A stretch of 64,000 nucleotides of DNA from Chloranthus sessilifolius (lineage: Eukaryota; Streptophyta; Magnoliopsida; Chloranthales; Chloranthaceae): positions 18,477,366 through 18,541,365 of the forward strand of contig CM037587.1 in assembly GCA_021018995.1 (NCBI GenBank). The letters run 5' to 3'. Positions 15,901 through 57,595 of the stretch are shown here, piece after piece. Made by a program: the position numbers and the translations under genes. The stretch's first letter is position 1. Every line of letters begins with the position of its first letter. Under the pieces are notes generated by a model. That model made no database searches and was not told where the DNA came from. It worked only from the letters and a program-made list of their open reading frames with translations.

Positions 15901-18900
15901 CATGCTTGGTAAAAACAGAAATCAGGGTATAGATATGAAATAAACATGGAATCATTAACAAAAGAAGTTTAAGTTGGTTTTCTCCTACCTCAGGTCAATT
16001 TATCTTCTAAGCAAATCTAAAGTCTTTTCAATGTGTCAGGGTTTGATCCTAGACTATAAACATAGTACTTTAAGTGTTAGGGATGTCAGAAAGTTAACCG
16101 GCACAATGTCCGGTGGTGTTTAACCCATAAAACTAAAACAGAACAAAACAGGGGTGATTGATCGATCAATACCTCTTGTTGATCGATCAATAACCCCATT
16201 GATCGATCAACACCCTCTTAGATCTCTTTCTGTAACAAGCCAATTGATCGATCAATACACCTTATTGATCGATCACCTATCATCATTGATCGATCAATAC
16301 ACTCATTGATCGATCAATAACCTCTCTTCTATTCACTTTTAACACAGCTTAAATTGATCGATCACCACTTTGTTTGATCGATCAATGCCTCCTATTGATC
16401 GATCAATGCCCTCATTGATCGATCACTAACCCATTTTGAAAAATTCCCACCTTCTGTTCACATTAACTGTCTATACAGATTGATCGATCAATGCCTTCAT
16501 TGATCGATCAACACCCTACAGTGATCGATCAATACCTTTGTTGATCGATCACCAACTGTCATTGATCGATCACTCTCTTGTTGATCGATCAATACCCAGG
16601 ATTGATCGATCAATGCCCAAATTGATCGATCAATGCCCTTCGGGCATTGAACTTCCAGAATTTAGGGGCTTCTGTTCCCCTTTCTGTTTTATACAGATTG
16701 ATCGATTAATGGTCTTCATTGATCGATCACCACTTATCATTGATCGAACAATGCCCTTATTGATCCATCAATAATGACAGGAACTCTGTCATTAATGGAG
16801 TTCATCTCCAAACCCTATTTTCTTATTTTTCATTAATGGTTCTCAACAACCATTAACACAACATCAATGTACATACTTGGGCTTCTCATTTGCCCCTATT
16901 TAAACATACAGACTCACCTTTGTTTGGGCCCTCTCAGGGTTTCGGCAAATCAATCTGGATGAGGGTTTCGGATCTAGCTCTCGGAGTTCATCACCGATCC
17001 GAGTCCGACGAGCAATCGTTTAGCTCCGGTTCCGCATGCATAGACTTCACACATACTTAGACCATACCTAAGCTCATCTCATTGAACTCTACCTACCCAA
17101 GCTTAGGAAACTCATCATCTCAATCTTGCTAACCCTGTTTTTCTCCAAGAACCCTCTTGAAAACCCACCTAGCTACAGGTTCTTTACCTACTGGAGCAAC
17201 TAGGGCAAGGGGAAGAAGAAGAAGAAGAAGGGGATCTCTCTCTAAGTCTCCCTTCCTTCTCCTATAAGTTACTAAACAGATATTTCTGTTTGCCCCTAGT
17301 TTATGTTTCGGTGTGGAGCACGAACACGGTTGCTACGACGCATCGTGTCACATTGGCCCTTTACACAACTCGGACTTAAACGAAAACGCACGTGTGAACT
17401 CATCGAATCACAGTGCAACTTTGTCTTAACTAATATTAATTCCAAAGTTTTAAGTTAGCCTCGATTTCTGTGCCGAGCACGTAGATCGAAATAGTCAGGT
17501 TCGTGTTCTAGATTTCAGGGTCGTTACAGATGCCGTGTGGAACCCGAGTGAGGTTGAAGTATGGCCCCGGACTACGCGTCGCGGTACATACGGCTGGGCA
17601 ACCTCGCGAGAAGAACACCAGGGCGCTGCGTGGGACTCAGTTGAGCACGATAGCATGTGTGCTAAGGATGAACGTGTGCTAGTAATTCGGAACGTACAAG
17701 AAGGCAAGCTGCGTGGGACTTAGTTGGGCACGCGAGCGTGAGGCACAAGGCTGTGGGCTTGGTTCGGTAGGCGAGCGAGGTACTAGTGCAGTGCACAGGG
17801 TGAAGCTTGAGCAGGCCAAGTTAGCGCAGCTGTGCAGATTGGCGTGTCGTAAAGGACATGATGAGCTGAATGGTAGGCCGTGAAATAGAGGCAACCATGT
17901 TGGGGGAGTTCCCGTCCTCTAAGCGGGTGGTATCAGAGCTGATGTGTAGATGGCACCGCTGGGTTGAAAGCGTTGTCAAGGACGCCTCGCGGCAGCTTGG
18001 TATGGGTAGGCTGACCTAGGGAAGCGTGCGTTAGGTGCCGCACGGGACTGAGGTTGCGGAAGTGCGATCCCGTGACAAGTAGGTCTAAACTTATCTATGG
18101 TGTTAGCATCCTTTTCCTTAGGAATAAGCCTAATGAAAGTCGAATTGATGAATTTATAAAGCAACTTCTTTTTCCTGAAAAAATTACTTACAGCCCTTGA
18201 GAAGTCATCTTGAATGATATCCCAATAAATTATGAAGAATTCAGCTGGGAATCCATCTGGGCCAGGAGCCTTGCCAGTAGGAGAGTCAAAAATTGCCTTT
18301 TTGATCTTCTCCGAAGTGACTGGAAGAGAAACCCTGCTGGCCTCCTCTGGGAATAACTTTCTTTTAAAGGGAATAAGTTGAACATCAGCAAAGCTAGAAG
18401 GAGAATAGATAAGTTTATAGTGACTGACTGCGAAATCTCCAATCTGCTTAGGATCAAAAAATTTATTACCATTACCGTCCACCTATTCAATAAGATTGTT
18501 AGTTTTAATACGGACACTAACAGCAGCATGATAATATCTTGTATTCCGATCCCCATCATTAATTCGAAGATGCCTTGCTTTATGAAAGTAAAACGCTTCT
18601 TCAGTGATTAGCTCCCTATTAAGATCAACTAGATCCTTCCTTTCATCTGCGTCCAAAGCCAAATTTCAAGGGTAATGTTGTATCGTCTTTTGAATATTCG
18701 AAACCATGGCTTTGGCATCTCCCACTCGGACATGAATAGACCCAAACTCATTATCATTCCATGATCGGATTGTAGTTTTAACATTTTCTTCAGCTTCTGT
18801 TGGAGGATGAACATTTCAGTCCCCTCCATAGCATCATTCCAGGCATTCTGAATAATATCACCAAAAACAGGCTGGGAGCACCAAACATTAAAAAAATTTA

Positions 18901-22363: not shown

Positions 22364-24600
22364 AGATAAAGTTAGGAATAGAAATCCGAAAATGATGAAA
22401 TGGGCAAGAGAATTGGACTCAAGGCACGTAATCATTGCAAAAGGGTTTCAGCTAGATGTTTCTAGGATACAACGAGCCTAATCTCTTGGATGGGATCCGT
22501 TACCTTGTAACAGTAGAGAATCGCCCCAGAAAACTCAATCCGATGAAGTACCACAAAAAGAAGAAAGCAAGAGAAATTCTCAAGTTTTATACAAGGAATC
22601 CGATGGATTTCAGAGTGTCTTCAAATTTGTGTTCTAAAGCCTCCTTTTATAGAATTTTGAACGGCTCAGATAATCTTATGAAAGGTTGCAACTTTTCGAA
22701 TTTAAATTCGAACGGTTGCACACCTTTATAAGCGATTATGAAACGGTTGGGTCTAATGGTCAACATTTGACCAATCAGTTTGGCTCAATAAAATCAAATT
22801 GACCAACTGATTAGTGGCCTATTAGGCCCGATCCGGCCCATGAATAATTTGACCGTTGAATCTACTTGGTCAAAAAGTCAAACCTCTCCTTGCAACGATG
22901 CGCAGTGCAAAATGCGTGCGCGCCTAAACGCGAATCTCATGCACACGCGAATGCGGCGACTCGCCGCTAGACATACTCTTCTCCTCTTATTGCCAAATAA
23001 TAACAGAAGGTGAAAGGTTCTATATATAGCCTAGACATTTTTTACTTTTACCAATGTGAGACTATTCATTTGCATACAAAAATGAGAATACCTATTGCTT
23101 AAAAATTAACTCACAAAATTAAAAAAGAAATCAAAAGCAAGTTTTATTTTCTTTAAAATTATTTAATATATTTATTATATTATAAATTAATAAATAAAAG
23201 CAAGTTTTATTTTCTTTAAAATTATTTAATATATTTATTATATTCTAAATTAATAAATAATTATAACTTCTCAAAAAAAAATATATATTATGTATCCCCG
23301 AAACGTGCCGATATTTGATACCCTGATTGGTGGATGTGTGGATGTTAATAAAATCTTAACTACCAATGCACCTCTAAACTTTATTATTATTATTTTTTTT
23401 GGATTCTTTTGTTTCTTATTTGTTGTGTTCTTTTTTGTAGGGACATGTTTAGGTATTGGATTAATGCTAATATGTGGCCTGTGGTTCTATCTACAACTCA
23501 AGAAACGAACCCTAATCAAGCTTAAAGAGCAATACTTCCGCCAAAATGGCGGTCTGCTATTGAAACAACAAGTGTCGTCGACTCGCGAAGGTGCCACAGA
23601 TTGTGCTAGAATATTTTCATTAGACGAGCTTAAAGAAGCTACTGAGAACTACAACGACGATCGAATTCTCGGCACGGGTGGATACGGAACGGTCTATAAG
23701 GGAACTCTAGACGACGGCACGATAGTCGCCATTAAGAAATCCAAGGTAATCGATCAAAGCCAAATCGATCAGTTCATAAATGAGGTCGTTATCCTAACCC
23801 AAATCAACCACCGTAACGTTGTAAAGCTTTTGGGCTGTTGCTTGGAAGCCGAAGTCCCGATGCTCGTTTACGAGTTCATCCGTAACGGAACCCTTCATCA
23901 ACACCTTCACGAGACCCTCTCCTCTAAAATATCATGGAAAACTCGGCTAAGGATTGCAATAGAAACGGCCGAAGCCCTCGCATATCTCCATTCGGCTGCA
24001 TCAATGCCCATTTTCCATAGGGATGTGAAGTCTTCAAACATACTATTAGACGAGCATTATACGGCAAAAGTAGCGGATTTTGGAATATCGAGATTGGTTC
24101 CTTTGGATCAAACACAGATACCCACTTTGGTTCAAGGGACATTAGGCTACTTGGATCCCGAATACTTTCAAACAAGCCAATTGACCGAGAAAAGTGATGT
24201 TTATAGCTTCGGAGTAGTTCTCGTCGAGCTCTTAACCGGGCAAAAGCCAGTCTCCTTCGAGCGGTCGAAAGAGGATAGTAATCTAGCAATGTATTTCTTA
24301 TCTTCTTTGAGGGCTAAGGATCTTTCGGAGTTTATTGAGGAGAATGTGTTGAGAGAAGGCAGCGAAGAAGAGCTGCGAGCGGTTGCGGGATTGGCGAGGA
24401 AGTGTTTGCTATTGAAAGGCGATAAAAGGCCAACCATGAAGGAGGTGGCTCGAGAGCTTGTTTTGGTGGCCGGCTTAGGAAGCCATGCTTCGGTGGAGAA
24501 TGAGGAAGAGAATGAAGAGTTGGTCAACGGGAGACTGCCGTTAACTATAGTTGATAGCGTTTCCGCCAGTTTGGCTTTTAGCTTTGACTTGGCGAGGTAG
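5587..24600 (+). CDS. Wall-associated receptor kinase (WAK), three exons
   Basis: The exons are 5587-6400, 6479-6646 and 23441-24600, all with GT-AG borders. Both junctions split a codon after its first base, and the total of 2142 bases gives 713 residues plus stop, the usual WAK size. WAKs sit in the plasma membrane, contact cell-wall pectin through the extracellular part and signal through a cytoplasmic Ser/Thr kinase. Domains in order: signal peptide (about 1-22), cysteine-rich GUB_WAK pectin-binding domain (about 26-130), EGF-like repeat ending in GCQ (about 272), calcium-binding EGF repeat starting DINEC, one transmembrane helix from [10 protein letters not shown] at about 328, and the kinase. 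Start choice: the frame is open upstream to 5491, but this ATG is the one that begins the signal peptide. No break is seen. The odd feature is intron 2 (16794 bases), packed with nested transposons. Clade within the WAK family is not assigned. Confidence 0.9.
6401..6478 (+). other. WAK intron 1 (78 bases)
   Basis: The intron is AT-rich with a GT start at 6401 and a GATGCAG end at 6478. It falls between the two EGF repeats, where WAK genes typically have their first intron. Confidence 0.85.
6479..6646 (+). CDS. WAK exon 2: calcium-binding EGF repeat
   Basis: The split codon from exon 1 makes Asp, so the exon opens DINECGD, the calcium-binding EGF signature. Six cysteines follow, with the family-like phrase [15 protein letters not shown]. 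The exon ends [10 protein letters not shown] just before the membrane helix. The donor is CTAG|GTATGC at 6647. Reading past this donor gives 7 more codons and a stop, consistent with a true exon end. Confidence 0.88.
6875..6943. repeat. (AT)n microsatellite
   Basis: About 34 uninterrupted AT dinucleotides. A minus-strand frame made of repeated Ile-Tyr across it is an artefact. Confidence 0.95.
7262..7325. mobile_element. Fragment of a hairpin-MITE end
   Basis: TTGGTGTTATTGCCACACCA followed by CTTTATGTTACAGGCACCTCAC resembles the terminal arm of the hairpin MITEs. The reverse complement of 20755-20810 reads GGGTGGTGTTACTTCCACAC and continues similarly. No opposite arm is seen nearby. Confidence 0.4.
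8100..8345 (+). mobile_element. Possible truncated LINE 3' tail (plus strand)
   Basis: This is a T-rich stretch with TTGTTTG and TTTTCTT runs, then TCTTTTATGGAATGAAACTG and TACTACTCAAAAAAAG. It resembles the 3' untranslated tail and A-rich end of plant L1 LINEs. No coding part is attached. Confidence 0.35.
8544..8816 (-). pseudogene. LINE ORF2 C-terminal RNase H domain
   Basis: A 90-residue stretch carries the plant L1 RNase H (RVT_3) pattern: IWVESDSK, then [11 protein letters not shown], then [18 protein letters not shown]. The N-terminal part of the domain is lost at the CACTA/MITE insertion to its right. It ends at the LINE's 3' untranslated region. Confidence 0.8.
8857..9066. mobile_element. 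CACTA-type element fragment inside the LINE
   Basis: It begins CACTACAAAAAAATAAG, a CACTA-type terminus. It then has a 36-base unit repeated in tandem (about 8879-8914 and 8915-8950, sharing GACAGTTTTTTGCAGCC). No matching right terminus (TTTTGTAGTG) follows before LINE sequence resumes, so the fragment is truncated. Confidence 0.5.
9077..9343. mobile_element. Mutator-like MITE, 267 bp
   Basis: Terminal arms of about 50 bases pair: GGGCACTTTAGAAAACAATG with GCTTTTTAGCAAAAAAGACCC on the left, against GGGTCTTTTTTGCTAAAAAG and the ATTATCCC end on the right. The flanks are TTAATTTTA (9068-9076) and TTAATTTTTA (9344-9353), a near-perfect 9-base target duplication as expected for Mutator-like transposition. 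The inner sequence also folds on itself (GTGCTTTCAC and GTGAAAGC words). Confidence 0.7.
9402..10144 (-). pseudogene. LINE ORF2 zinc-binding region (zf-RVT)
   Basis: Two overlapping frames match the zinc-binding region found downstream of plant L1 reverse transcriptases. The first has [19 protein letters not shown]. The second has [22 protein letters not shown], a C-x2-C ... H-x4-C pattern (about 9740-9790), then [14 protein letters not shown] frameshift separates them near 9848. Confidence 0.8.
10145..10340 (-). pseudogene. LINE ORF2 linker between RT and zinc region
   Basis: No long frame remains here, but the sequence lies in line with the flanking LINE domains and has similar base composition. 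It is read as decayed ORF2. Confidence 0.5.
10341..11403 (-). pseudogene. LINE ORF2 reverse transcriptase, C-terminal two thirds
   Basis: On the minus strand the sequence continues the reverse transcriptase from the insertion point: [12 protein letters not shown], then [12 protein letters not shown] (motif A aspartate), then [14 protein letters not shown] and [10 protein letters not shown] (FADD catalytic motif, about 10925). It goes on to YLGIPLF and the C-terminal FLWRG and [14 protein letters not shown] phrases near 10341-10526. Several frame changes and stops occur. Confidence 0.85.
11404..12315 (+). repeat. First LTR of the short LTR element
   Basis: It matches 12667-12978 and 17529-18077. 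It is GC-rich compared with the surroundings and contains repeated GGCACGCGACA-type words. The frames in it are not genes. Confidence 0.85.
12319..12330 (+). other. Primer-binding site
   Basis: TGGTATCAGAGC directly follows the first LTR. It is the common initiator-Met tRNA-type site of plant LTR elements. Confidence 0.85.
12982..14764 (-). pseudogene. Del/Tekay gag and protease remains
   Basis: The gag start MGPKFRG is followed by an Arg/Gly-rich region, the capsid-like stretch with [18 protein letters not shown], and two zinc knuckles ([13 protein letters not shown] and [14 protein letters not shown] near 13600-13710). An AT-rich non-coding spacer of about 220 bases comes next. The protease region has [19 protein letters not shown]. 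The same spacer lies between gag and protease in the plus-strand copy. Confidence 0.85.
14870..17528 (-). repeat. Del/Tekay LTR (minus strand)
   Basis: It is about 90 percent or more identical by eye to the solo LTR at 30787-33464 over their first 200 bases. Both carry the TGATCGATCA array, the AGCAGACA-rich end and a GAAGAAGAAGAAG run near 17215. Confidence 0.88.
16156..16735. repeat. Array of TGATCGATCA palindromes in LTR
   Basis: About 20 exact TGATCGATCA palindromes, usually extended to TTGATCGATCAA or ATTGATCGATCAAT, are scattered over some 580 bases. Spacers vary from about 8 to over 50 bases and differ in sequence. Near-matches such as GATCGATTAA lie at the edges. This is not a constant-period satellite. 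Confidence 0.95.
18078..18482 (-). pseudogene. LINE ORF2 reverse transcriptase, N-terminal part
   Basis: The minus strand carries [29 protein letters not shown] (a hallmark of L1 reverse transcriptases), [12 protein letters not shown] and IDKFRP, and stops at the LTR element. The continuation lies at 11403 and leftward. Confidence 0.85.
18629..19084 (-). pseudogene. LINE ORF2 endonuclease, C-terminal part
   Basis: [13 protein letters not shown], then [11 protein letters not shown] (the SDHSP-type motif of APE-like L1 endonucleases) and the linker PLNFFNVW followed by tryptophan-containing spacer. The N-terminal catalytic half is missing. Confidence 0.8.
19300..20201 (-). pseudogene. LINE ORF1: DUF4283 and zinc knuckle
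   Basis: The start codon at 20199-20201 opens [14 protein letters not shown]. The DUF4283 region follows (about 19873-20103: [28 protein letters not shown]), typical of plant L1 ORF1 proteins. Next come [11 protein letters not shown] and a C-x2-C knuckle ([10 protein letters not shown], about 19665). The C-terminal part is low-complexity with Asn/Gln. Frame changes separate the pieces. Confidence 0.8.
20480..20815. mobile_element. Hairpin MITE, copy 4
   Basis: CCTACCATAAGACG near 20517 pairs with CGTCTTATGGTAGG near 20650. ACATGTTGATTACAC pairs with the ATGGAATAAACTT region. The right arm continues GATTGGGATGAAGAATGATC, as in the other copies. It abuts the LINE's 5' end. Confidence 0.65.
20816..21301. 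other. Unassigned intron sequence
   Basis: No frame, repeat or motif that I can assign. AT-rich with a few GGGCAG and CTAAGGG words (21028-21056). Confidence 0.5.
21302..21621. mobile_element. Hairpin MITE, copy 5 (best-preserved ends)
   Basis: CTACACCACCTTACGTTACA followed by CTCACCCCACTTAG at the left is the near-complement of CTAAGTGAGGTGGGTGTAAC and TAAGCTGGTGTGGTAG at the right. It is 320 bases long, with CCAATCTTTCATAAAA corresponding to the AGATTGGGATGAAAA side in other copies. No convincing target duplication was found. Confidence 0.7.
21622..22300. other. Intron stretch with GATACCGAT / ATCGGCC words
   Basis: From about 22040 to 22290 the words ATCGGCCGATACCG, CCGATAC and TATCGG recur in both orientations with about 20-50 base spacing. 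The remainder is AT-rich. It resembles a dispersed simple-sequence repeat and no protein is recognisable. Confidence 0.5.
22302..22359. repeat. (AT)n microsatellite
   Basis: About 28 AT dinucleotides next to the GATACCGAT repeat block. Confidence 0.95.
22360..23132. other. Unassigned intron sequence, possibly a solo LTR
   Basis: It begins TGTTAGATAAAG after the (AT)n tract. It contains TATATATAGCC near 23017 and CAATGTGAGACTATTC near 23053, phrases that recall LTR promoter ends. There is no purine tract, primer site or second copy to confirm it. A 91-codon frame (22456-22731) is unrecognised. Confidence 0.3.
23133..23258. repeat. 63-bp tandem duplication
   Basis: Two copies at 23133-23195 and 23196-23258, both starting AAAAGCAAGTTTTATTTTC, differ by about one base. 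They lie shortly before WAK exon 3. Confidence 0.9.
23441..24600 (+). CDS. WAK exon 3: membrane helix and Ser/Thr kinase
   Basis: The open frame extends upstream to 23290, but 23290-23440 encodes a hydrophobic low-complexity run and ends in a TTTTTTGTAG acceptor. I therefore place the exon start at 23441. It encodes the helix [17 protein letters not shown], then [15 protein letters not shown], and a complete kinase. Residues numbered in the whole protein: P-loop GTGGYG at about 405-410, ATP lysine 426 in VAIKK, helix-C glutamate 442, HRD aspartate 522, DFG at 540-542, then [11 protein letters not shown] and [19 protein letters not shown] plus DFG make it an active-type RD kinase. It ends LARstop, with a short acidic insert near VENEEENEE. 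Confidence 0.93.
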
Positions 24601-29697: not shown

Positions 29698-30059
29698 AAA
29701 TTTTGCCCACTCATTATAATTTTAGGTAAGGCACTAGTAGAAATCATGGACCCAAACGTTAGAAAATCCCATGAAGGCCCATTTTGGAATGGAAACGCTC
29801 AAACGGTCAATAGTCACGGCTTTGTCGTGAGTGCAGACACCCCCATTTTGGCCTCTCGGAGTACACAAATTCATTTGGTCAGCCCTTGACCTTTTTAATC
29901 CTCGACACGGGACCGTGCAACAGTACATGGCTGAATACAAGCTGAAATAATAGCTTTGCGGCTCAGATCCCAATGTAGGGAGGCTATATACTAAGTAATA
30001 GTATATAGTCGGAATGCAGACTGAACAATAGTCTTGCATTCCATTCTTGAGACCATACC

Positions 30060-30710
30060 CGAACAACCCTGAATTAAGCGCCTGAAACCCAGCGCGTAAT
30101 TTGATCACGCGTAGAACCACAAGCGCACGATCAGTCCCCTTTCAGACCAACCTTCCTTTTACAGACCGTTTTGAGACTCGATTACACGCCTGGAACCAGA
30201 CGCACGATTGGATTGAGCGCTACACCACTCACGCGTAATTGGCCTACGCTCGACCTAGTCTCCTACCCTTGACTTCTGCGTTTCCTCGATTAAGCACTTC
30301 AGGTAACATGCTTAATTGGATTACTCATGTCCCAACATGCGCGTAATTAGTCCTGATTTCGTTAGGACTAGGAAACTCGCTGAATAATTCATCCCATCGC
30401 TCACTTAGTCGGTGGCCGACTACAGGCGATTAAGCGCCAGAAAGCTAGCGCACAATTCTGTTGAACACCCGAAAATAGGCGCATAATTGAAGGAAAACTT
30501 ATAAAAGCTTTTTTTCTCGAAGAGAGAAGGGAGGCTGGCAATTTTGAGAGAGAGAACAAAACTTTTTTGGGACTTCGAAACTAGAGAACTCCGAGGACAA
30601 GCCCATAGAGCAAATTAGTCATGATGTCGGTGATCGACTCAAAGCGATTAAGTGCCAGAAAACTGGTGTGCAATTCAGTTAAACGCCAGGAAACAGGCGC
30701 GTAATTGATG
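30060..30710. repeat. GCGCC...GGCGCG-TAATT hairpin words in LTR
   Basis: Units such as AAACGCCAGGAAACAGGCGC followed by GTAATTG, AAGCGCCAGAAAGCTAGCGC and TACACGCCTGGAACCAG recur about every 30-50 bases. Each is an imperfect hairpin around a GAAA or GAAC loop. They recur at 57740-58160 and, within the interior, at 42580-42960. Confidence 0.75.
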
Positions 30711-44974: not shown

Positions 44975-47657
44975 TGTAACGACCCAAAAATTATGAACAA
45001 GAAAATAACTATTTCGATCTACGTGCTCAGCACAAAAATTGAGACCGATTTGAAAATTCATAATTAATATTAGTTGACATAAAGTTGCACCATAGTTAGG
45101 TGAGTTCACACGTGCATTTTCGCTTAAGTCTGAGTTGTGTAGGGTGTCGACGTAGCACGTTACGCCATAGAGATTTGTGTAGGTGCTTAACACCGGAGTA
45201 CAAATTAGGGTCTAAACTGAAATATCAAAGATATTTCAGTTTAGGTAGCTTATAAGGGAAGGGAGAGACCTGGAGAGGTATTCTTCTTCTTCTTCCCCTT
45301 GCTCTTGAGCTAAGAGTCTGTAGCTAGGTCGGGGTTTGAGTGTGCTCTACGACGAAAGAGGGTTAGAGGTACCGAGATCTTGTGTAAATCGTAGTTAGGG
45401 TATGTGGACTGCAATAGGAGGAGCTCAAGCATAGTCTAAGTGCACGTGAAGCCTTTGCATGCTGAATCGGAGTCAATACTTTGCATATCAGAGTCGCACC
45501 GACGACACAGCTCGAGTTCCAGATCTGAAACCCCTTTCGGACCTTTTTGCCGGAACCCCGAAAGGGCCCAAATAAAGGTGTGTTTGTGCGTTTAAATTGG
45601 GCTAAAGACAGCCCCTTATATATGTGTTATGTGTGTATTAATGGTTGCAAGAAACCATTAATGAAAATTGGTTTAAAATAGGGAAAGTAGATGACCTCCA
45701 TTAATGACAGAGTTTCTTTCATTATTGATCGATCAATGACAAGATTGATAGATCAATACTTGAGTGATCGATCAATGAAGGCCATTGATCGATCAATCTG
45801 TATAAGACAAATAAGGGAACAGAAACCCTGAAATTCTTAGAAGTTCAATGCTCGAAGGGTGTTGATCGATCAATTAGTGGATTGATCGATCAATCCTAAG
45901 TATTGATCGATCACAGAGAGGGTGATGGATAAATGACTGGTAGTGATCGATCAATGAAGGCATTGATCGATCACTGGAGTGTATTGATCGATCAATCGAT
46001 ATAAATCACAAATGTGAACAGAAGGTGAGAAATTTGAGATTTTAGGCTATTGATCGATCAATGAGGGTATTGATCGATCAACAAGACGCATTGATTGATC
46101 AACCAAGCTGGTGATCGATCAATTTTGGCTGTGCTAAAGTGTGAAGAAAAGGGATTATTGATCGATCAATTAAGGTAGTGATTGATCAATGAAGGGTGTT
46201 GATCGATCAATAAAGGTCATTGATCGATCTACTACCTCTGTTGCTGGTGAGTTAAATTGAGAGTGTTGATCGATCAATGAGGCCATTGATCGATCAACAA
46301 GGAGGATTGATCGATCAATAAGAGTGTTGATCGATCAATTATCCCTGTTTTGTCCTATTTTAGTTGTGTGAATTGAATGAGACTGGACACCATACCTGTT
46401 GACCATCTGACCTGCCTAACACTTAGTATGCAATGTTTATGGTCTAGGATCGAACCATGACGCTTTAAAAAGCTTTGGATTTGCTTAGAAAGAAATCTGA
46501 TCTGAGGTAGGGGAATTCAATTGAAATTACATTTATTCTTGATCTCATGGATTCTAATGTTCTACATAAAACTGCATAGTCTGATTTTACTGTTCAGTCA
46601 TGTTTAACATATGTGTGGCAACTCTGTTATGTATTTGACTCCTACTATCTGACACCTGTCAGCTGTCATCTAAATTCTGTTAAAGTATAATATGTCTGCA
46701 TGTGATTTGAGGCTTATTAATCTGATGAATCTCACCGTCTCGATGGTATATCTGTGTCTGGCACACTCGTGCATCTGCTTGAAAATCCTCAGCACAATTG
46801 CACTCCATAGTTGAGGCATTATTGCATTCCTGAAATTGTTCATGTGAACGACGATGGTTGGGATTACCCATCGGACCAAATCTGGATACCACGTGCTATA
46901 CTCACGGGAGTTATTTAAGTTTATTATTCTAAGTCATTAAACACTAAATGCATCACATTTCGTGGATTCCGATACGATTTGCCTGCTTTGATAATTCTGC
47001 ATTCTGAAATATCTGCTTGCACCTGTTCAATTCTGACCATGTCTTCTGTTACCATGTTTTACAATTAAGATATAATTTTAACTGATATTCTTCTACTGAG
47101 CTTAGATGGTTAGCTCACCTTATTTCCATTAACATTTTAGGTTATGAGGCTAGAGTTCCTGGTATTGAGAGCGACCCTGACTATCAGCCGGATCTAAAGG
47201 CTGAGGCAAAGGACGAGGAGACGGACGCCCAGGCGGACGATTTCTATCCTTAGTCTGGGTATACTGGCCCACTGTTTTGAGGGATTTTGTATAAACTTTG
47301 GATTGTTGTGTGCCTGGTGGCCACTTCTGTAGATATTTTCTTTCTTTTATAGTGTTACTATACATTCTATTGGAACCATTATTAGGAACCATTGTTTTGG
47401 GTGATGGATGTCCATCACCATTGGTTCTTCTTGGTTCCTTTTTGGGAATGTATATTCTTTTGATATGGTTAAATACAAGTTTGTTCTATTGTTTCTTTCT
47501 ATTTTAAATGCCTTGAGATGACTCGATCTACCACTGTTGGATAGTGTCTGCTCAGTTTTCGCTATACGAGCAGACACTTAGTGTTTTATCTTGGGGATCA
47601 TCCAGAGTATGATCCTGATGGCCCGGATTTCTGAGCGCAAAAATTTGGGCTGTCATA
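44975..47657 (+). repeat. 5' LTR of the Del/Tekay element
   Basis: TGTAACGACCC start and GGGCTGTCATA end, with a TTCTTCTTCTTCTTCC tract near 45280 and the palindrome array in its middle. Confidence 0.88.
45724..46340. repeat. Array of TGATCGATCA palindromes in the 5' LTR
   Basis: About 18 exact palindromes plus several one-base variants over some 615 bases. Spacers differ in sequence from the 16156 and 32065 arrays, except for the core word. Confidence 0.95.
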
Positions 47658-47763
47658 GTTGGTATCAGAGCCTTGGCTTTAGGTTGAACTGTGGGTTCAC
47701 GTTGGATTGTTTTCATAATCTATGTACTGATCAATGTTATTGTTTTCATAATGACAGACCAGT

Positions 47764-49086
47764 ATGGGCCCTAAGTTAAGAGGCGGACGCAGTGGAGGAA
47801 GGGAAAGTCAAAGAGAGGTTCCTCTGAGGGAGATCCCCGATGTGATTGACACGTCGTGGGGATTGGAATTCCTCTCACACATGAACGCGGTTCCTGTGGG
47901 ACCTAGAGGAGGTAGGAGAGGCAATGAGGAGAGAATGGAGCAGGTGTTGGAAGCATTGGCTACCAACGTCGCTCAGCAGACAGCTGCTCTGACTCAGCAG
48001 GTCGCTAGACCACCTCATCAGCCAAGTGGGTTCGTGGAGTTTAGGAGAATGAGACCTCCTAACTTCTCGGGTCAGATGGACCCCATAGAGGCAGAGGAAT
48101 GGATAGAAGAAATGGAGAAGCTTTTTGAAGTGCTCCAATGCAACGATGTGGAGAAAGTGCGCTGGGCCACTTTCAAGCTGGATGGTGACGTCGGACCTTG
48201 GTGGAAGTCGGTGTCACAGAATAGACAGAGAGAGTTTCCTCTTACTCCTTGGACATGGGAGGAGTTCACGGAAGTGTTTTACTACAAATACTTTCCAAAA
48301 ACTGTGAGGCATTAGTGGGAGGTAAAATTTATAGAGCTGAAGCAGGGTGCAATGTCAGTGAGGGATTATGGCGCTGAATTCGATCGACTGGCTAGGTTTA
48401 CACCCCAGCATGTAGCCACTGAACTGATGAGAGCAAGGAAATTTCAACTTGGCCTGAGGCAGAACTTGCAAAAGGATGTCTCCATGTGGGAAATGGAGAC
48501 ATATGAGAGAGTGATGGCCAAGGCTCTCATAGCAGAGGAGGAGAACCAGAAATAGTTTTCTTGGAGGGACAAGCAGGCAAGAGAGAGACCATTTCAAGGG
48601 CAGTCTCAGGACTCGGAGCAGAATAAGAGAGCTAGATTCTCCAGACCTCCGAGATACCCTACACACTCTCGACCGATGATTTCCTCGGGTCCGAGTTCGT
48701 ACCAGAGAGCAGTAGTGCCTACATCTTCCAGACCATTTCGACCGTCTGGGTCTTCTGATAGCGGGGCCTCAGTGACCCAGGGACCTTCAAGGGTCTCTTC
48801 TTTCACTCCAGCTGTGTCATGTGCAAAGTGTGGGAAACCACACAAGACAGAGGATTGTCAAAGGGATACTAGGGCGTGCTTCAGGTGTGGTAAGATGGGT
48901 CACTTGGTTAGGAGTTGCCCCGAGGAGAGCGAAGACGGCAAAGAGTGGTCAGGATCGGTGTCCACGCAAAGATCTTCTCGACCTGTTGTTCACGGTCGAG
49001 CATACGCTATTACTGCTATAGATGCTCTGACATCGAATGATGTCATCCAAGGTATGATTAAAATTCAAGAGAAGTTATTTATCTAG
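47764..49086 (+). pseudogene. Del/Tekay gag
   Basis: It starts MGPKLRGGRSGGRE. It has the capsid-like region PPNFSGQMDPIEAEEWIEEM and [15 protein letters not shown], an Arg/Gln-rich region and two zinc knuckles near 48830-48920 ([27 protein letters not shown]). A non-coding AT-rich spacer of about 170 bases follows before the protease. Broken. Confidence 0.88.
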
Positions 49087-49255
49087 TAAGATGGAATGGA
49101 AATTTAGTAAAAATAGAATTGCTTTGACTAAGTGTTAAAATAATAGTACACATACGCACACACTTCTTAAACACTTGATCTAATATTGTAATTGGCTTAT
49201 AGGTGAGCTGAAATTATATAGGAGTTGTGATATTTGCTTTCATAGAGCAAGAGTC

Positions 49256-52200
49256 TTGATAGACCCAGGCTCTACGCATTCATTCGTAAGGCCCCAATTT
49301 ATGAAGGAATTGAGCGCCACTCCTGAGCAATTAGATTTCATATTGACAGTGTCCATTCCTACGGGTAGTGCAGTGAATGGACTCACAGTGTGTAAATCGG
49401 TGATAGTGTCAGTAGATGATCACGAGACCCTGGCAGATTTAATATTATTAGATATGAAGGGATTTGACATCATTCTGGGAATGGACTGGCTATCTGCTTA
49501 CCATGCGAGCGTTGATTGCCTTCGGAAGATCGTGGTTTTTTGCCCTCCAAAGGAGCGATCGTTCAGATTCTTCGGGGTGAAGTCTAAAGTAGCTCCGCTG
49601 ATATTTGCTATTTAGGCTGAGAAGATGATGAAGAGTGGATGCAGTGGATATATGACCTTTCTACAAGAACAACGGGAAGAGATGAATGTGATATCCGATA
49701 TTCACGTTGCATGCAAGTATCCCGATGTATTCCCTGAGGATTTGCTAGGACTACCACCAGCTCGAGAGATTGAGTTTGCAATAAATTTGGTTCCAGGCAC
49801 TAAACCAGTATCTAAGGTTCCCTATCGGATGGCCCCAACAGAATTACAAGAGTTGAAGGAGCAACTACAAGAACTGCTTGACAAATGGTTCATTCTACCG
49901 AGTGTGTCTCCTTGGGGAGCACCTGTGTTATTTGTCAGAAAGAAGGATGGTTCAATGCATCTATGCATTGACTATCAGCAGTTAAACAAGTTGACGATTA
50001 AGAATCGTTACCCACTCCCTAGGATCGATGATCTGTTTGATCAGTTACAAGGAGCGAGGTTCTTTACGAAGATTGACTTGAGGTAAGGATACCATTAGCT
50101 ACGAGTCAAAGCATAAGATATTGAGAAAACGGCGTTCAGAACCAGATATGGGCACTATGAATTCTTGGTTATGCCATTTGGATTGACGAGCATGCCTGCG
50201 TCTTTCATGGACTTTGATGAACCGAGTGTTTAAACCACACTTGGATAAGTCGGTAGTTGTCTTTGTAGACGACATCCTTATCTATTCCAAGACAAAGGAA
50301 GAACATGAAGGACATCTACACGTGGCTTTACAGACCCTCAGAGAGCACAAATTGTATGCGAAGCTGGCAAGTGTGAGTTTTGGCTGGACCAAGTTAGTTT
50401 CTTAGGCCATATTGTCTCTGCTAAGGGTATAACAATTGACCTGACGAAGATCGAGGCCGTCGTGAATTGGGAACAGTCGAGAACAGTAACAGAGGTCCGT
50501 AGTTTTCTTGGGTTAGCAGGATACTACAGACGGTTTGTAGAGGGGTTCTCCAAACTCTCGAGTCCACTTATTCAGCTTACCAAGAAGAATGCTAAGTTTG
50601 ATTGGACTGATCGGTGTGAGAAGAGTTTCCAGGAACTGAAGACGCGTCTGACTACAGCACCGGTATTAGCTATACCTTCTGGCAGAGGGGGTTTCGCTAT
50701 CTATAGTGACGCATCTTATAGTGATTTGGGTTGTGTCCTCAACCAGCACAAGAAGGTTATAGCGTATGGCTCTAGACATCTTAAGGAACATGAGAGAAAT
50801 TACCCGACTCATGATCTGGAGTTAGCGGCGGTGATCTTTGCTTTGAAGATTTGGAGACACTACTTATACGGTGAGACGTTTGATATCTACACCGACCACA
50901 AAAGCCTTAAGTATCTGTTTACCTAGAAGGATTTGAATATGTGACAGCACAGATGGATGGAGTTCTTGAAAGATTACGATTGTTCCATTTAGTATCACCC
51001 TGGGAAAGCCAATGTTGTGGCAGATGCTTTGAGTAGGAAGTCTTCAGCACAGTTGACACATCTTATCACCAGAGTACAGCGGTGGCATCTACTTGAGGAC
51101 TTGGCCTTGTGTGATACACTGATTGATGTCAAGGGTTCAGGGGCATTGATATACGGCCCACGTTGTTTGATAACGTGCGTAAGCTCTAGATGATTGACGA
51201 TGAGCTTATGGCCATTAGAAGGGATGTGATCAATGAGATCAGGCCTGATTTTACCATCAAAGATGATGACACTTTACTATTTAGAGATCGGATGTGCATA
51301 CCTGATATGAAAGATCTTAAAGATACAATTTTGGAGGAAGCACACAAGTCTACGTATGCTATACATCCTGGGAGTACCAAGATGTACCAAGATCTCAAGC
51401 AAAGTTTTTGGTGGAGAGGACTGAAAAAGATGTTGCAGATTATGTTTCTCGGTGTTTGGTCTGCCAGTAGGTGAAAGTGGACCATCGGAATCCAGCAGGT
51501 TTGTTACAGCCATTGCCAGTACTAGAGTGGAAATGGGAAGCCATTTCTATAGATTTTATTTTGGGATTGCCGAGCACATTGAGGAAGAACAATGCCATCT
51601 GGGTCATTGTAGATCGACTGATAAAATCTACGCATTTTCTGCCGTATCGGACTACACACACAACAAATAAGCTAGCAAAGCTGTACATGAAGGAGATAGT
51701 TCGGTTACATGGCATACCAGTCAGCATTGTATGTGATAGAGATCCGCTCTATACTTCGCAATTCTGGCGACGGTTTCAGGAAGGCATGGGTTCTAAATTG
51801 GAGTTTAGCTCAGTGTTTCATCCTCAGACAGATGGGTAGACTGAGAGAGTGAACCAGATTATAGAGGATATGTTGCATGCATGTGTGTTGGACTTTCATG
51901 GTTCATGGGATCAACATTTACCTCTGATCGAGTTCGCTTACAATAACAACTATCAGTCGAGCATTGGGATGGCGCCTTATGAAGCCTTGTATGGACGACG
52001 ATGCAGATCTCCATTGAATTGGGAGGAAGTCAGTGAGAAGCCCGTTTTGGGACTTGATATCGTGGACAGTACTATCGAGACGGTTCAGTTGATCTGCGAA
52101 AGATTGAGGGTTACTCAAAGTCGCCAAAAGAGCTATGCCGATCTCCATCAGACGCACGTGGAGTGTCAGGTATAACTGAATGCGTTAGAAAAGTTGCTGT

Positions 52201-52644
52201 TCATAGTTAATATGATTGGCTATGGACTTGACCACTATTTTTCAGGTTGGAGACAAGGCCTTTGTAAAGATCTCGCCAACCAAGGGTGTTATGCGCTTTG
52301 GGAAGCGAGGGAAGCTGAGTCCTCTATATATCAGCCCGTTTGAGGTACTCGGACGGGTTGGCAAAGTCACGTATCGGATTGCCTTACCACTGCGGTTGGC
52401 GAGCATGCATAACATGTTTCATGTTTCCATGCTACGAAGATACGTGCGCGACCCAACTCATGTCTTAGATTTCCAACCGATTGAGTTACAAGAGGACTTG
52501 ACGGTCATTGAGGAACCAATCGCCATCTTGGATCATAGAGATCAAGTTTTGTGGACCAAGTTGATTCCACTGGTGCTAGTCAAGTGGAGAAATCATTCAG
52601 ATTCGGAAGCTACTTGGGAATGCGCAACTGAAATTCGCGAGTAG
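49256..52644 (+). pseudogene. Del/Tekay pol: protease to chromodomain
   Basis: Protease with DPGSTHSFV and [16 protein letters not shown]. Reverse transcriptase with [14 protein letters not shown] and FVDDILIYSK. RNase H with [13 protein letters not shown] and [21 protein letters not shown]. Integrase with FHPQTDG and YGRRCRSPLNWEE. The end is VLVKWRNHSDSEATWEC, the C-terminal chromodomain-like motif of the Tekay branch. Broken in several places. Confidence 0.9.
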
Positions 52645-52837: not shown

Positions 52838-53170
52838 TTGATTGATCAGTAGGAGTTATTGATCGATCAATGAGGTTATTGATCGATCAACAATGTCTAG
52901 TTGTGGGGTTGAGCTCGATTGATTGATAGATCAATTTCAGCATTGATCGATCAATGTAAAGAGTGTTGAACGATCAACATGGTAGTGATCGATCAATTAA
53001 GAGAACATTGATCGATCAATAGAGGGTATTGATCGGTCTATGCATTGGGCTAGGGCATAAAGATGCTTCATTGATCGATCAATAAAAGCATTGATTGATC
53101 AATCCTGAAGTTTTAAGTTAAGATTGGGGTTTTCGAATGGTCATTTGCACTGTGCTTGGAGTGATCGATC
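52838..53170. repeat. Second TGATCGATCA array, between pol and the extra frames
   Basis: Eight or so exact palindromes and about six variants (GATTGATC, GATCGGTC, GAACGATC) over some 330 bases, outside the LTRs. The spacers do not match the LTR arrays. Confidence 0.85.
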
Positions 53171-53423
53171 AAGGGCAAATTTTCAACCGACCATTCAACC
53201 TCCTTCCCGACTCATTTTTCGGCCATCTAGCTCCTTCTTCCGCCTGATTAGAGTGGAAATTGCCCCATTCATTTGGTAACACCTTCTTTTTGTTCATTCG
53301 ATTCTCGTTTTCATATATTTTTGCAAGAGTTTGACCATGGGACCTTGCACGAAGAACCCTTCGCGTAAGGTGCCCATTTCTTAGGCCCGTACACCCGTAC
53401 CGCCCACCGAGTCCGTTCCCCAA

Positions 53424-54233
53424 ATGTCCGTGCCACCTGTGGCATCAGTTTCAAGCGTGGTACCACCCGTTTCAACCCCCATCCCGACCCCGATGGGTCC
53501 TTGGTGGACTTCTAAATCGTTCCTACCCGAGTACGTGTTCACCTTGTCCCTTTACGAGGATCGGCCCAAAATGGCTTGGGCCAAGGGCTACATCCAACGG
53601 CTCGGGTTGAAACCCTTGTTGGAGCCTTTCCACGATCACTACTGTCCTAGGATCATGAGGCATTTCTTTCAAAATTTATGGTGGGGTGATAGTCAGCATC
53701 GACTCGTCACGTCCATCGATGGGTTCGAGTATAAGTTCAACCACTTTCACGTGGCGGCGGCACTTCAATGCCTGTCCTCTTACGTTGAAAACGCAGGTTT
53801 GGATGCCCTGTATGTCAAGGAGGTCCCCTTCATTGACGTGGTCACCAAAATGACCCAAGGTCAGTATGGGAAGGGCCAATCCATCTCTGGGGCCCAATTG
53901 CCCGACAAATTGTGGATGCTTGATACATATATCAAGTGTGCACTTAACCCATTTTTGCACAAGTCCTCACGGACTGGTACGGTGCAGCAGGCCCTGTTTT
54001 CGGCCTTTGAGAACCGTTGGTTCTCTATGGCTGATTTGGTCATCGATGGCATCATAAATGCCAATGACCTTATGTCCGAAAAAGTCAAATCTAGGGTTAA
54101 GAAACAAATCCCCTATTTTTGCCTCATCACCAAGATGGTAGAGCAATATGCCGCTCTATGCGAGGCATATACCTTGGCTCCTAACGAGCCACGCTTGGTC
54201 GATAATACCAAAGTCTTTTACTTGAAAGACTAG
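53424..54233 (+). CDS. Extra frame between pol and 3' LTR, plant transposon-associated protein
   Basis: 269 residues. A Pro/Ser-rich start (SVPPVASVSS) leads into a compact domain with SKSFLPEYVFTLSLY, GLKPLLEPFHDHYCPR, FFQNLWWG, KFNHFHVAAALQCL, NPFLHKSS, QQALFSAF and IINAND, ending in YFCLITKMVEQYAAL. The style resembles the 'putative plant transposon protein' family found in many plant retroelements, whose role is unknown. It lies in the same strand as pol. A distantly similar pattern occurs at the right edge of the window (minus strand). It could be an acquired host-like gene. Confidence 0.5.
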   Translation: MSVPPVASVSSVVPPVSTPIPTPMGPWWTSKSFLPEYVFTLSLYEDRPKMAWAKGYIQRLGLKPLLEPFHDHYCPRIMRHFFQNLWWGDSQHRLVTSIDGFEYKFNHFHVAAALQCLSSYVENAGLDALYVKEVPFIDVVTKMTQGQYGKGQSISGAQLPDKLWMLDTYIKCALNPFLHKSSRTGTVQQALFSAFENRWFSMADLVIDGIINANDLMSEKVKSRVKKQIPYFCLITKMVEQYAALCEAYTLAPNEPRLVDNTKVFYLKD

Positions 54234-54320
54234 ACCAAGAGCTACAATTTATTAGTTCGACGACTCCCGGAGGAGGAGGAGGGCGCAGCTGAGCCCGTCC
54301 CGCCTGTCGTCGCCGAGGGT

Positions 54321-54809
54321 GTGGCACCTGCCGAGCCTGCACTTGGAGAGGGGGAGGCCCCACGTGATCCACCACCTCTACCTGAGGTGTCTGCACGACC
54401 TGCCCCCACTACACCCCGTAGACCGCCTCGTCACACCCCATCACATCCCCCACCACCTTCCTCAGTCGACGTAGCAGCCACGCTTCGCAAGCTTGTGGAG
54501 GGTAACCGGCGCATTCATGAGCGTCTTGACGGTATGGAGGCGTTCCAGCGACAGATCCATCGTCGTCTGGACTATCACGAGGGCATGCATGAGCTCATCA
54601 TGCAGCACTTATATGCCACCACATCCACACCGATGATTGCCCACTCCCGTCAGCACGTGGTGGACCCTCGTTACTACCGCACACCACCACCTCGTCCCAC
54701 CAGACCCATGCCTGACGAAGCTGGACTATCTGATGTCCCTGCAGGTAATTGCTTTACTCTTCTATTTAATTTTGTTGGTAATTCTATATGTTTACTACAA
54801 TCTATTTAA
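54321..54809 (+). CDS. Pro-rich frame with coiled segment, after the extra frame
   Basis: 162 residues. The first half is Pro/Ala-rich (PPLPEVSARPAPTTPRRPP). A charged helical stretch then follows (VAATLRKLVEGNRRIHERL, MEAFQRQIHRRLDYHEGMHE) with heptad-like spacing. The tail overlaps AT-rich sequence and may be spurious. It sits directly downstream of the 53424-54233 frame and may form the tail of the same product type. Function unknown. Confidence 0.35.
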   Translation: MAPAEPALGEGEAPRDPPPLPEVSARPAPTTPRRPPRHTPSHPPPPSSVDVAATLRKLVEGNRRIHERLDGMEAFQRQIHRRLDYHEGMHELIMQHLYATTSTPMIAHSRQHVVDPRYYRTPPPRPTRPMPDEAGLSDVPAGNCFTLLFNFVGNSICLLQSI

Positions 54810-54939: not shown

Positions 54940-57595
54940 TGTAATGACCCAAAAATTCTGAACAAGAAAATAACTATTTTGATTTACGTGCCTGGCATAA
55001 AAATTGAGACCGATTTGAAAATTCATAATTAATATTAGTTGACATAAAGTTGCACCATTGTTAGATGAGTTCACACATGCATTTCAGTTCACACATGCAT
55101 GTTAGATGAGTTGTGTAGGGTGTCGACGTAGCACATTACGCCATAGAGATTCGTGTAGGTGCTTAACATCGGAGTACAAATTAGGGTCTAAACTGAAATA
55201 TCAAAGATATTTCAATTTAGGTAGCTTATAAGGGAAGGGAGAGACCTGGAGAGGTATTCTTCTTCTTCTTCCCCTTGCTCTTGAGCTAAGAGTCTGTAGC
55301 TAGGTTGGGGTTTGAGTGTGCTCTACGACGAAAGAGGGTTAGAGGTACCGAGATCTTGCATAAATCGTAGTTAGGGTATGTGGACTGCAATAGGAGGAGC
55401 TCAAGCATAGTCTAAGTGCGTGTGAAGCCTTTGCGTGCTGAATCGGAGTCGATACTTTGCATAACGGAGTCGCACCGGCGACACAGCTCGAGTTCCAGAT
55501 TTAAAACCCCTTTCGGACCTTTTTGCCGGAACCCCGAAAGGGCCCAAATAAAGGTGTGTTTGTGCATTTAAATTGGGCTAAAGAGAGCCCCTTATATATG
55601 TGTTGTGTATGTATTAATGGTTGCAAGAAACCATTAATGAAAATGGGTTTAAAATAGGGAAAGTAGATGACCTCCATTAATGACAGAGTTTCTGTCATTA
55701 TTGATCGATCAATGACAAGATTGATCGATCAATACTTGGGTGATCGATCAATGAAGGCCATTGATCGATCAATCTGTATAAGACAAATAAGGGAACAAAA
55801 ATCCTAAAATTCTTAGAAGTTCAATGCTCGAAGTGTGTTGATCGATCAATTAGTGGATTGATCGATCAATCCTGAGTATTGATCGATCACAGAGAGGGTG
55901 ATCGATCAATGACTGGTAGTGATCGATCAATGAAGGCATTGATCGATCACTGGAGTGTATTGATTGATCAATCTGTATAAATCATAAATGTGAACAGAGG
56001 TGGGAAATTTGAGATTTTAGGCTATTGATCGATCAATGAGGGTATTGATCGATCAACAGGACGCATTGATCGATCAACCAAGCTGGTGATCGATCAATTT
56101 TGGCTGTGCTAAAGAGTGAAGAAAAGGGATTATTGATCGATCAATTAAGGTATTGATCGATCAATGAAGGGTGTTGATCGATCAATAAAGGTCATTGATC
56201 GATCAACTACCTCTGTTGCTGGTGAGTTAAATTGAGAGTGTTGATCGATCAATGAGGTCATTGATCGATCAACAAGGAGGATTGATCGATCAATAAGAGT
56301 GTTGATCGATCAATTACCCCTATTTTGTCCTGTTTTGGTTGTGTGAATTGAATGAGACTGGACACCATACCTGTTGACCATCTGACCTGCCTAACACTTA
56401 GTATGCAATATTTATGGTCTAGGATCGAACCATGATGCTTTAAAAAGCTTTGGATTTGCTTATAAAGAAATCTGATCTGAGGTAGGGGAATTCAATTGAA
56501 ATTATATTTATTCTTGATCTCATGGATTCCAATGTTCTACATAAAATTGCATAGTCTGATTTTACTGTTCAGCCACGTTTAGCATATGTGTGGCAACTCT
56601 GTTATGTATTTGACTCCTTCTATCTGGCACCTGTCATCTGTCATCTAAATTCTGTTAAAGTATAATATGTTTGCATGTGATTTGAGGTTTATTAATCTGA
56701 CGAATCTCACCGTCTCGACGGTATATCCGTGTCTGGCACACTCATGCATCTGCTTGGAAATCCTCGGCACAATTGCACTTCATAGTTGAGGCATTATTGC
56801 ATTCCTGAAATTGTTCATGTGAACGACGATGGTTGGGATTATCCATCGGACCAAATCTGGCTACCACGTGCTATACTCATGGGAGTTATTTAAGTTTATT
56901 ATTCTATATCATTAAACACTATATGTATCACATTTCGTAGATTCCGATACGATTTGCCTGTTTTGATAAATTCTGCATTCTGAAATATCTGCTTGCACCT
57001 GTTTAATTCTAACCATGTCTTCAATTACCATGTTTTACAATTAATATGTAATTTTAACTGATATTCTTCTACTGAGCTTAGATGGTTAGCTTACCCTATT
57101 TCCATTAACATTTTAGGTTATGAGGCTAGAGTTCGAGAGCGAACGACTATCGGATCTAGAGGTCGAGTGGAGGACGAGGAGACGGACGTCCAGGCGGACG
57201 ATTTGTATCCTTAGTCTGGGTATACTGGCCCACTATTTTGAGGGATTTTGTATAAACTTTGGATTGTTGTGTGCCTGGTGGCCACTTCTGTATTTACTTC
57301 TGTAGATATTTTCTTTCTTTTATAGTGTTACTATACATTCTATTGGAACCATTATTAGGAACCATTGTTTTGGGTGATGGATGTCCATCACCATTGGTTC
57401 TTCTTGGTTCCTTTTTGGGAATGTATATTCTTTTGATATGGTTAAATACAAGTTTGTTCTATTGTTTCTTTCTATTTTAAATGCCTTGAGATGACTCGAT
57501 CTACCACTGCTGGACAGTGTCTGCTCGGTTTCCGCTATACGAGTAGACACTTAGTGTTTTGTCTTGAGGACCATCCAGAGTATGATCCTGATGGT
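54940..57595 (+). repeat. 3' LTR of the Del/Tekay element
   Basis: Matches 44975 onward, TGTAATGACCC start, and lacks the last roughly 40 bases relative to the 5' LTR. Near 55085 a short local duplication of TTCACACATGCAT distinguishes it. Confidence 0.88.
55700..56318. repeat. Array of TGATCGATCA palindromes in the 3' LTR
   Basis: About 22 exact palindromes. Several sites that are one-base variants in the 5' LTR array are exact here (for example near 55722 and 56064), so the ancestral array was probably near-perfect. Confidence 0.95.

Follow-up and report, generated by a model that had tools for sequence, protein, structure and literature searches.

Arrays of a conserved palindromic word between freely diverging spacers in the long terminal repeats of a Chloranthus sessilifolius retrotransposon family

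Within a stretch of 64,000 nucleotides from the genome of Chloranthus sessilifolius (contig CM037587.1, positions 18,477,366 to 18,541,365 of the forward strand; hereafter the window), the long terminal repeats (LTRs) of a Del/Tekay-like retrotransposon family carry dense arrays of a perfect palindromic word, TGATCGATCA. The window holds 90 exact copies of this word, where 0.1 would be expected (dinucleotide shuffles gave a mean of 0.10 and a maximum of 1), and all of them fall in five arrays, with none elsewhere in the window. The word mutates no slower than the spacers between its copies; it is kept in replicating lineages and lost after insertion, because it shows near-zero change between the LTR subfamilies and spacer-like decay within a single insertion. 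From these sequence patterns we consider it probable that each array is a homotypic cluster of sites bound by a homodimeric protein which the element would need for its replication, the sites being selected in the replicating lineage.

Self-BLAST of the window recovered four copies of an LTR of ∼2.66 kb, a minus-strand pair that is 88% alike and a plus-strand pair that is 94% alike. They represent three insertions: a truncated element (LTR A), a probable solo LTR (LTR B) and one element with both of its LTRs (element C, with LTRs C5 and C3). The LTRs and the arrays, where a word is a TGATCGATCA site within 2 mismatches, are as follows:

14870-17528, minus strand: LTR A, the 5' LTR of a truncated chromovirus-like element (self-BLAST; primer-binding-site (PBS)-like sequence and LTR ends)
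30787-33464, minus strand: LTR B, a probable solo LTR in a T-run (self-BLAST; flanks), with exact ends and target duplication ambiguous
44975-47657, plus strand: LTR C5, the 5' LTR of element C (self-BLAST), with the PBS-like TGGTATCAGAGCC next to it at 47660
54940-57594, plus strand: LTR C3, the 3' LTR of element C (self-BLAST), with the polypurine-tract-like GGGGGGGATAA just before it
16157-16773, minus strand: array A, 23 words, 20 exact
32068-32700, minus strand: array B, 24 words, 23 exact, in groups of 4-8-4-4-4 on the element strand
45724-46339, plus strand: array C5, 23 words, 18 exact
52839-53171, plus strand: array I, internal to element C between pol and an extra open reading frame (ORF), 12 words, 7 exact
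55700-56314, plus strand: array C3, 23 words, 22 exact

The five arrays together comprise 105 sites within 2 mismatches, including the 90 exact ones, which cluster at 16159-16729 (20), 32070-32698 (23), 45726-46337 (18), 52860-53171 (7) and 55702-56312 (22). The original prediction, made from the letters of the window, had given 20, 23, 18 and 22 words for the four LTRs, and these counts were reproduced exactly. It had placed the arrays inside LTRs, which is right for four of them, and had overlooked the fifth, at 52839-53171, inside the third element. Its statement that the words are mostly extended to ATTGATCGATCAAT was too strong, as this 14-mer occurs 35 times, and TTGATCGATCAA 59 times, against 90 copies of TGATCGATCA. 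The wider consensus of the conserved unit is RTTGATCGATCAAY; in arrays B and C3, the ten core positions hold 1.85-2.0 bits of information each and the two positions on either side 1.0-1.6 bits.

The layout of the arrays is regular. In the four LTR arrays, 72 of the 73 spacings of at most 25 bp measure 19-21 bp (34 of 21, 31 of 20 and 7 of 19), the single exception being 17 bp, and the short steps of array I are 19-23 bp. Words come in groups of 4, 8, 4, 4 and 4 in array B and of 4, 7, 4, 4 and 4 in array C3, and between the groups lie longer gaps of 45-48, 65-66 and 76-77 bp, almost the same in the two LTR subfamilies. The spacers had been predicted to vary in length and text and the array to be no simple satellite; their text does vary and the satellite is rejected (see below), while their lengths are more regular than claimed. 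Indels in the arrays measure 1-2 bp or 16-20 bp, the latter about one unit, except for a single 4-bp indel that separates A from B, while those in the flanks are scattered over 1-18 bp.

The evidence that the word itself is retained comes from a MAFFT alignment of the four LTRs whose columns were classed as word, spacer or flank. Between the subfamilies, words differ at 4/220 positions and spacers at 106/368 for A and C3, at 2/230 and 115/377 for B and C3, at 9/220 and 111/369 for A and C5, and at 7/230 and 119/378 for B and C5. Words thus differ by 0.9-4.1%, compared with 28.8-31.5% for spacers and 28.1-31.4% for flanks. Compared position by position between B and C3, each of the word offsets 0-9 has changed in at most 1 of 23 sites, and offsets -5 to -3 in 8-14 of 22-23. 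Differences fixed between the A/B and C subfamilies number 0/220 in words, 85/367 in spacers and 402/1919 in flanks, alongside 11, 41 and 241 private changes; these counts leave out columns gapped in any LTR (keeping 220 of 240 word, 367 of 397 spacer and 1919 of 2173 flank columns), and a further 0 word, 8 spacer and 57 flank columns, whose pattern was mixed, were counted as neither fixed nor private. A table of the McDonald-Kreitman kind for words and spacers gives a Fisher p of 1.1e-5, where this and the p-value for the C5-C3 pair below assume independent sites and are silent on a concerted, hairpin-correction model.

Both LTRs of one retrotransposon insertion are identical at the time of insertion. 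LTRs C5 and C3 differ at 7/230 word positions (3.0%), 14/381 spacer positions (3.7%) and 108/2022 flank positions, and the rates of word and spacer are indistinguishable (p 0.82), which is what selection acting on replicating copies only predicts. The two minus-strand LTRs, A and B, differ at 4/230 word, 43/377 spacer and 230/2026 flank positions. The contrast between subfamilies does not depend on aligned words: with the words masked in the alignment, all 230/230 word letters of B still land on word letters of C3, with differences at 2/230 word and 97/374 spacer positions. In the other pairs masking raised the word differences (A-C3 8/217, A-C5 12/217, B-C5 18/225, A-B 9/227), a rise that we attribute to small register shifts, and left the spacers far higher (A-C3 85/360, A-C5 86/354, B-C5 95/369, A-B 41/377). 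The prediction that, between the LTR subfamilies, spacers change far more than the word is therefore borne out, and the equal rates of word and spacer that would have spoken against it appear only within the LTR pair of one insertion.

Array I shows the same word in another context. Its spacers align to those of C3 with a score of 17.0 (shuffled mean 12.7; 7/200 shuffles as high) and to those of B with 14.0 (61/200 as high), where B and C3 spacers score 145.5 with each other; array I was therefore not copied recently from an LTR. A plain copy of LTR sequence was accordingly rejected as its origin, the spacers being at best weakly alike. Among the BLAST matches listed for array I, those outside the words have E values of at least 2.6, save matches that overlap words.

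In the reading that we favor, the protein would find some 24 copies of RTTGATCGATCAAY in each LTR, spaced mostly by 20 or 21 bp, or about two helical turns, and a shorter array just upstream of the extra gene of the element. The protein would coat the array cooperatively and, once bound, would either turn on the LTR and the extra gene or hold silencing off both. Steps of about two helical turns would suit such cooperative binding, to which fits of phase over whole arrays add nothing. What we observed is the arrays, their spacing and a word that replicating lineages conserve and inserted copies lose; from this we infer selection as the cause, a binding protein, its dimeric state and an effect on expression or chromatin. 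As for the identity of the protein, we lean slightly towards a host factor for the TGATCGATCA LTR family, with a binder encoded by the element as a possible alternative.

Several points weigh against this reading. The comparison rests on three insertions of the LTR family, and two dozen redundant, near-perfect sites exceed, in our judgement, the constraint that ordinary promoter sites need. Whole-array phase fits are best at 9.8-9.9 bp for the LTR arrays and 10.6 bp for array I, and a helical period of 10.25-10.5 fits no whole array. Deviant words are also more frequent in array I than in the LTR arrays of element C (5/12 versus 6/46, p 0.039), and as RNA the native spacers give a stabler fold than some controls do, which a pure DNA-site view does not need. 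Finally, if all copies of the word drifted in concert under a neutral, hairpin-templated correction (see below), the chance of finding it unchanged between the subfamilies would be 0.03 with ten free sites and 0.17 with five half-sites at a divergence of 0.30, and from 0.06 (ten sites) to 0.24 (five) at 0.25.

That the arrays are an ordinary young tandem repeat, with words alike through recent origin or unequal exchange, is suggested by the periods of 19-21, 41, 81 and 108-109 bp that Tandem Repeats Finder reports over them and by their differing by about one unit. Such a repeat would need alike spacers, and we hold it to be extremely unlikely: short spacers at orthologous positions of B and C3 (17 positions) have an identity of 0.714, against 0.573 and 0.587 for paralogous spacers within an array and 0.471 after shuffling, whereas words within an array are 0.991 identical. 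A simple satellite or homogenised repeat was rejected on the same grounds, the unit as a whole not being alike. In addition, the two bases on each side of the word keep their positional state, with 74/92 identical against 0.65 expected and 0/5000 permutations as high. An exchange that homogenises words would homogenise spacers too, and homogenisation in its usual sense, which the original prediction had named beside selection, is thus not supported. Growth by 108-bp units likewise finds no support in the spacers of the 4-word groups, whose same-index and different-index identities are 0.558 and 0.571 in B and 0.606 and 0.600 in C3. We can suggest only one neutral process whose action would be confined to the words, namely hairpin-templated (quasipalindrome) correction in the course of reverse transcription, in which template switching keeps words alike without function, neighboring words pairing with loops of 6-7 nt so that word mends word, or half mends half. 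It would yield alike words, free spacers, decay after insertion only, perfect symmetry and family-specific words, and the predicted RNA fold does pair many neighboring words. Its tracts would have to stop at the edge of the word, since the bases one and two positions out keep their state, and array I keeps the same word even though its spacers have no clear kinship to those of the LTRs; we regard this process as quite unlikely.

A role of the words in RNA structure, as leader hairpins or kissing dimers for packaging, dimerisation or translation, appears very unlikely, with evidence on both sides. Each LTR has a TATATA or TTAAATA motif before its first exact word, at a distance of 174 bp in A and of 109-134 bp in the other three, for which reason the array may lie in a transcribed leader. 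When each word is scrambled internally, the fold becomes less stable by 131 kcal/mol in C3 and by 114 kcal/mol in B, and with words kept and the other letters shuffled, the native arrays are stabler than 12/12 controls (C3 -281.5 versus a mean of -245.1; B -273.0 versus -245.7), an advantage that partly arises because the shuffle breaks the bases flanking the palindrome. When the 14-mers are kept and the spacers shuffled in place, B (-273.0) still lies below 40/40 controls (mean -257.3, standard deviation 5.1, lowest -265.3), while C3 (-281.5) is not clearly special (mean -274.4, standard deviation 4.9, lowest -285.0). Any palindrome array would fold in this manner, the strength of the fold following from the self-complementarity of the words. 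What is kept is the exact letters and not pairing alone, which points to a protein: across all five arrays, 0/15 deviant words are compensated palindromes, and 5/15 carry a change of the central CG to TG. The cruciform or structure-only alternative raised by the original prediction is accordingly disfavored, and pure cruciform or RNA pairing was rejected as the main cause, given the uncompensated deviants and the fold of C3, which is not clearly special in the 14-mer-kept control.

The coding content of element C is as follows:

47755-52641, plus strand: broken gag-pol of element C (Pfam: gag, zinc knuckle, protease, RNase H, integrase, SH3_Tf2-1 and a borderline chromodomain)
53337-54809, plus strand: extra sense ORF, a 3' additional ORF (aORF), with an ATG at 53337 and in-frame stops at 53382-53384 and 54231-54233

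The Pfam domains of gag-pol sit in separate open pieces in Ty3 order. The reverse transcriptase piece, at 49616-50083, is without a Pfam match and shares 46% identity with a Ty3-type piece from another part of the window, and the chromodomain (PF00385; E 3.4e-5) scores 24.1 bits, just below the curated cut-off of 25.1. This content, the borderline chromodomain and the long LTRs are consistent with the Del/Tekay label. A 5' aORF such as that described for Tekay group 2 of sunflower (PMC11728184) is absent from element C, which has no room for one because the PBS lies at 47660 and the gag frame is open from 47755; its extra ORF is 3'. Tekay groups without a 5' aORF are reported in the same source, and its absence thus does not exclude Tekay (PMC11728184). 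At LTR A, gag adjoins at 13447-14773 on the minus strand (Pfam), and similarity to element C ends near 12982. A related stretch without the interruption, at about 30553-30619, was used with the flanks in judging LTR B to be solo, and the last part of LTR C3 is missing or cut at ∼57595, at the start of sequence that is repeated at 29922-30629. The 3' half of the LTR also contains a perfect TGATGGATGTCCATCA-like palindrome, at about 47408-47423 in C5, which is identical in all four aligned LTRs.

Over its 489 codons the frame of the extra ORF is interrupted by 2 stops, and the alternative frames by 9 and 30. It matches PF20167 (Transposase_32) at E 0.0088 and 16.4 bits (curated cut-off 45), over positions 2-172 of a profile of 177. 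With E values up to 10, Pfam gave for its two pieces only PF20167 and a DUF3597 match, and no DNA-binding domain, DUF1985 or DUF287. Nothing significant was found in the PDB (best E 0.31), no relative was confirmed among viral contigs, and a structure predicted from the single sequence of the longer piece was uninformative (mean predicted local distance difference test score, pLDDT, 38.5). A coding stretch at 63158-63385 on the minus strand is weakly similar to the extra ORF (27.6% over 76 positions, E 1.3e-4); it is followed, at 62086-63042 on the same strand, by a proline/serine-rich open frame, and the palindrome scan described below shows no cluster there.

As a special case of the protein-binding reading it is possible, if unlikely, that the product of the extra ORF is itself the binder. 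It would recognize the palindrome in the two LTRs and also ahead of the gene that encodes it, and would lift silencing in the manner of the VANC proteins of VANDAL transposons, for which precedents exist, as described in PMC5735166, PMC10398659 and PMC2613891. An array of the word directly precedes the extra ORF in element C, and another LTR family in the window has another palindrome, and these two observations make an element-encoded binder worth testing. Standing against it are the single, degraded copy of the ORF, its weak PF20167 match with neither a DNA-binding domain nor DUF1985 at E up to 10, a fold that is uninformative at pLDDT 38.5, a best PDB match at E 0.31 and the lack of a confirmed relative among viral contigs. 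By analogy with VANC and TNPA, the LTR retrotransposon families of this plant might even each own a palindrome array in the LTR and an element-encoded dimeric reader, which in element C would be the product of the extra ORF, with word and reader changing together between families, a generalization that we consider doubtful.

That other palindrome belongs to one of two further arrays in the window:

264-409, plus strand: array of GCTCGAGC / CGCTCGAGCG in another LTR, of a related family, with 5 exact 8-mers
2746-2958, plus strand: tentative third array, with the degenerate palindromic consensus ACAACTAGTTGT, in an LTR-like stretch with many steps of 19-22

A scan of the window looked for 8- and 10-base palindromes that recur in 3 or more exact copies close together, with first-order simulation in 500-base blocks (20 runs) as the control. 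Besides AT runs, the scan returned only TGATCGATCA and GCTCGAGC (265-408, 5 copies), and the simulations yielded 0.1 non-AT clusters per sequence for 8-mers and 0 for 10-mers over the 20 runs. The CGCTCGAGCG array has 4 exact 10-mers and 2 with one mismatch, in steps of 46, 23, 23, 22 and 22 bp, and the last 43 bp of the LTR that holds it match the end of LTR B at 86% (E 1.2e-7). For ACAACTAGTTGT, 10 sites (two of them overlapping) lie within 3 mismatches of the 12-mer, compared with at most 3 in each of 4 simulations, and its 10-mers give 5 sites against up to 5 in 15 simulated sequences, which is not significant.

Repeats of a different kind, tandem units of 34-36 bp with CTCCTA...TAGGAG inverted arms, occur at 35095-35367 and 59950-60211; these are not perfect palindrome arrays and sit in another repeated LTR-like family (33462-35695 and 58233-60514). 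The window also contains, 17 kb apart and both on the plus strand, a wall-associated-kinase-like extracellular part (5455-6426) and a kinase domain (23257-24600), perhaps one host gene with transposons between them. Beyond the plant, an Accumulibacter metagenome-assembled genome (L004, 4438-4657) has a 21-bp minisatellite with TGATCGATCA, whose printed stretch, unlike the LTR arrays, has alike spacers. Viral contigs with two words offered 3 loci of 2-4 words, where the stretches at the first word look unrelated, and prokaryote genomes with three words 5 loci of 3-8 words, which also look unrelated at the first word, some being plain minisatellites.

VANDALs are DNA transposons, and the Su(Hw) region of Drosophila gypsy has several sites whose motif is not a palindrome. 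Both invite comparison with the arrays described here. The targets of the VANDAL protein VANC are likewise dense arrays of short motifs in non-coding transposon DNA and are family-specific (PMC5735166, PMC10398659), as the TGATCGATCA arrays are within the 64-kb window; as in the present case, they are formed by tandem repeats and also lie upstream of, or within introns of, element genes (PMC5735166, PMC10398659). The VANC21 motif YAGTATTAY (PMC5735166, PMC10398659) differs from TGATCGATCA in being non-palindromic and in one orientation. VANC carries DUF1985/DUF287, neither of which Pfam detects in the pieces of the extra ORF, and VANC targets are described as diverging fast, whereas TGATCGATCA has stayed constant in LTRs that diverge by about 30%. 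In CACTA elements, the subterminal repeats resemble the arrays in offering many copies of one palindrome-capable motif (the right border of Tgmt* has 24 within 732 bp; PMC2613891), which differs between subfamilies and is thought to be read by an element-encoded, TNPA-like DNA-binding protein (PMC2613891). They differ in being ends of DNA transposons whose motifs are cis-determinants of transposition (PMC2613891) and in pairing with each other as stems (PMC2613891), where TGATCGATCA forms single, perfect palindromic words. The gypsy Su(Hw) insulator shares with the present case a regulatory region of an LTR retrotransposon with sites for one DNA-binding protein (PMC6471301); it differs in having a known host zinc-finger binder and in belonging to an animal element (PMC6471301).

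Among plant Ty3/gypsy elements, tandem arrays and extra ORFs between pol and the 3' LTR are described, as found here, for Retand (PMC11963269), in sunflower (PMC11728184) and in a review (PMC7264820). The arrays of Retand lie between pol and the 3' LTR, and its aORFs there are mostly antisense (PMC11963269), in contrast to the sense ORF of element C; the TRP28 aORF domain of Retand is predicted to bind DNA (PMC11963269). The sunflower Tekay aORF is 5' of gag, unlike the 3' ORF of element C, and a sunflower Athila aORF has a partial PF20167 match (both PMC11728184). A conserved palindromic word with free spacers in an LTR is not described in the passages of these sources on Retand, Tekay and Athila elements. 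In the open-licence literature, among the matches listed, no transposon paper by title contains TGATCGATCA, which does stand in a quantitative PCR primer in PMC3120740; the matches opened for GATCGATC in retrotransposon literature were a Chicago-library junction, a chloroplast primer and an artificial test sequence; none of those listed for palindromic arrays in LTRs fits by title; and DUF1985 together with Transposase_32 returned only the sunflower paper (PMC11728184). Motif arrays in transposons are already known, while among the matches listed from this literature none was seen to describe TGATCGATCA, or any palindrome array that is conserved between free spacers, in a plant LTR.

The roles of the extra genes of plant LTR retrotransposons are described as undetermined or debated (PMC7264820), and a short, exact cis word in the LTR and before the extra gene constitutes a directly testable partner for such genes. 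The contrast between free decay after insertion and none between lineages offers a simple route to functional words in other LTRs. Were the reader of the word encoded by the element, retrotransposons would, like some DNA transposons, run their own sequence-specific regulatory or anti-silencing system.

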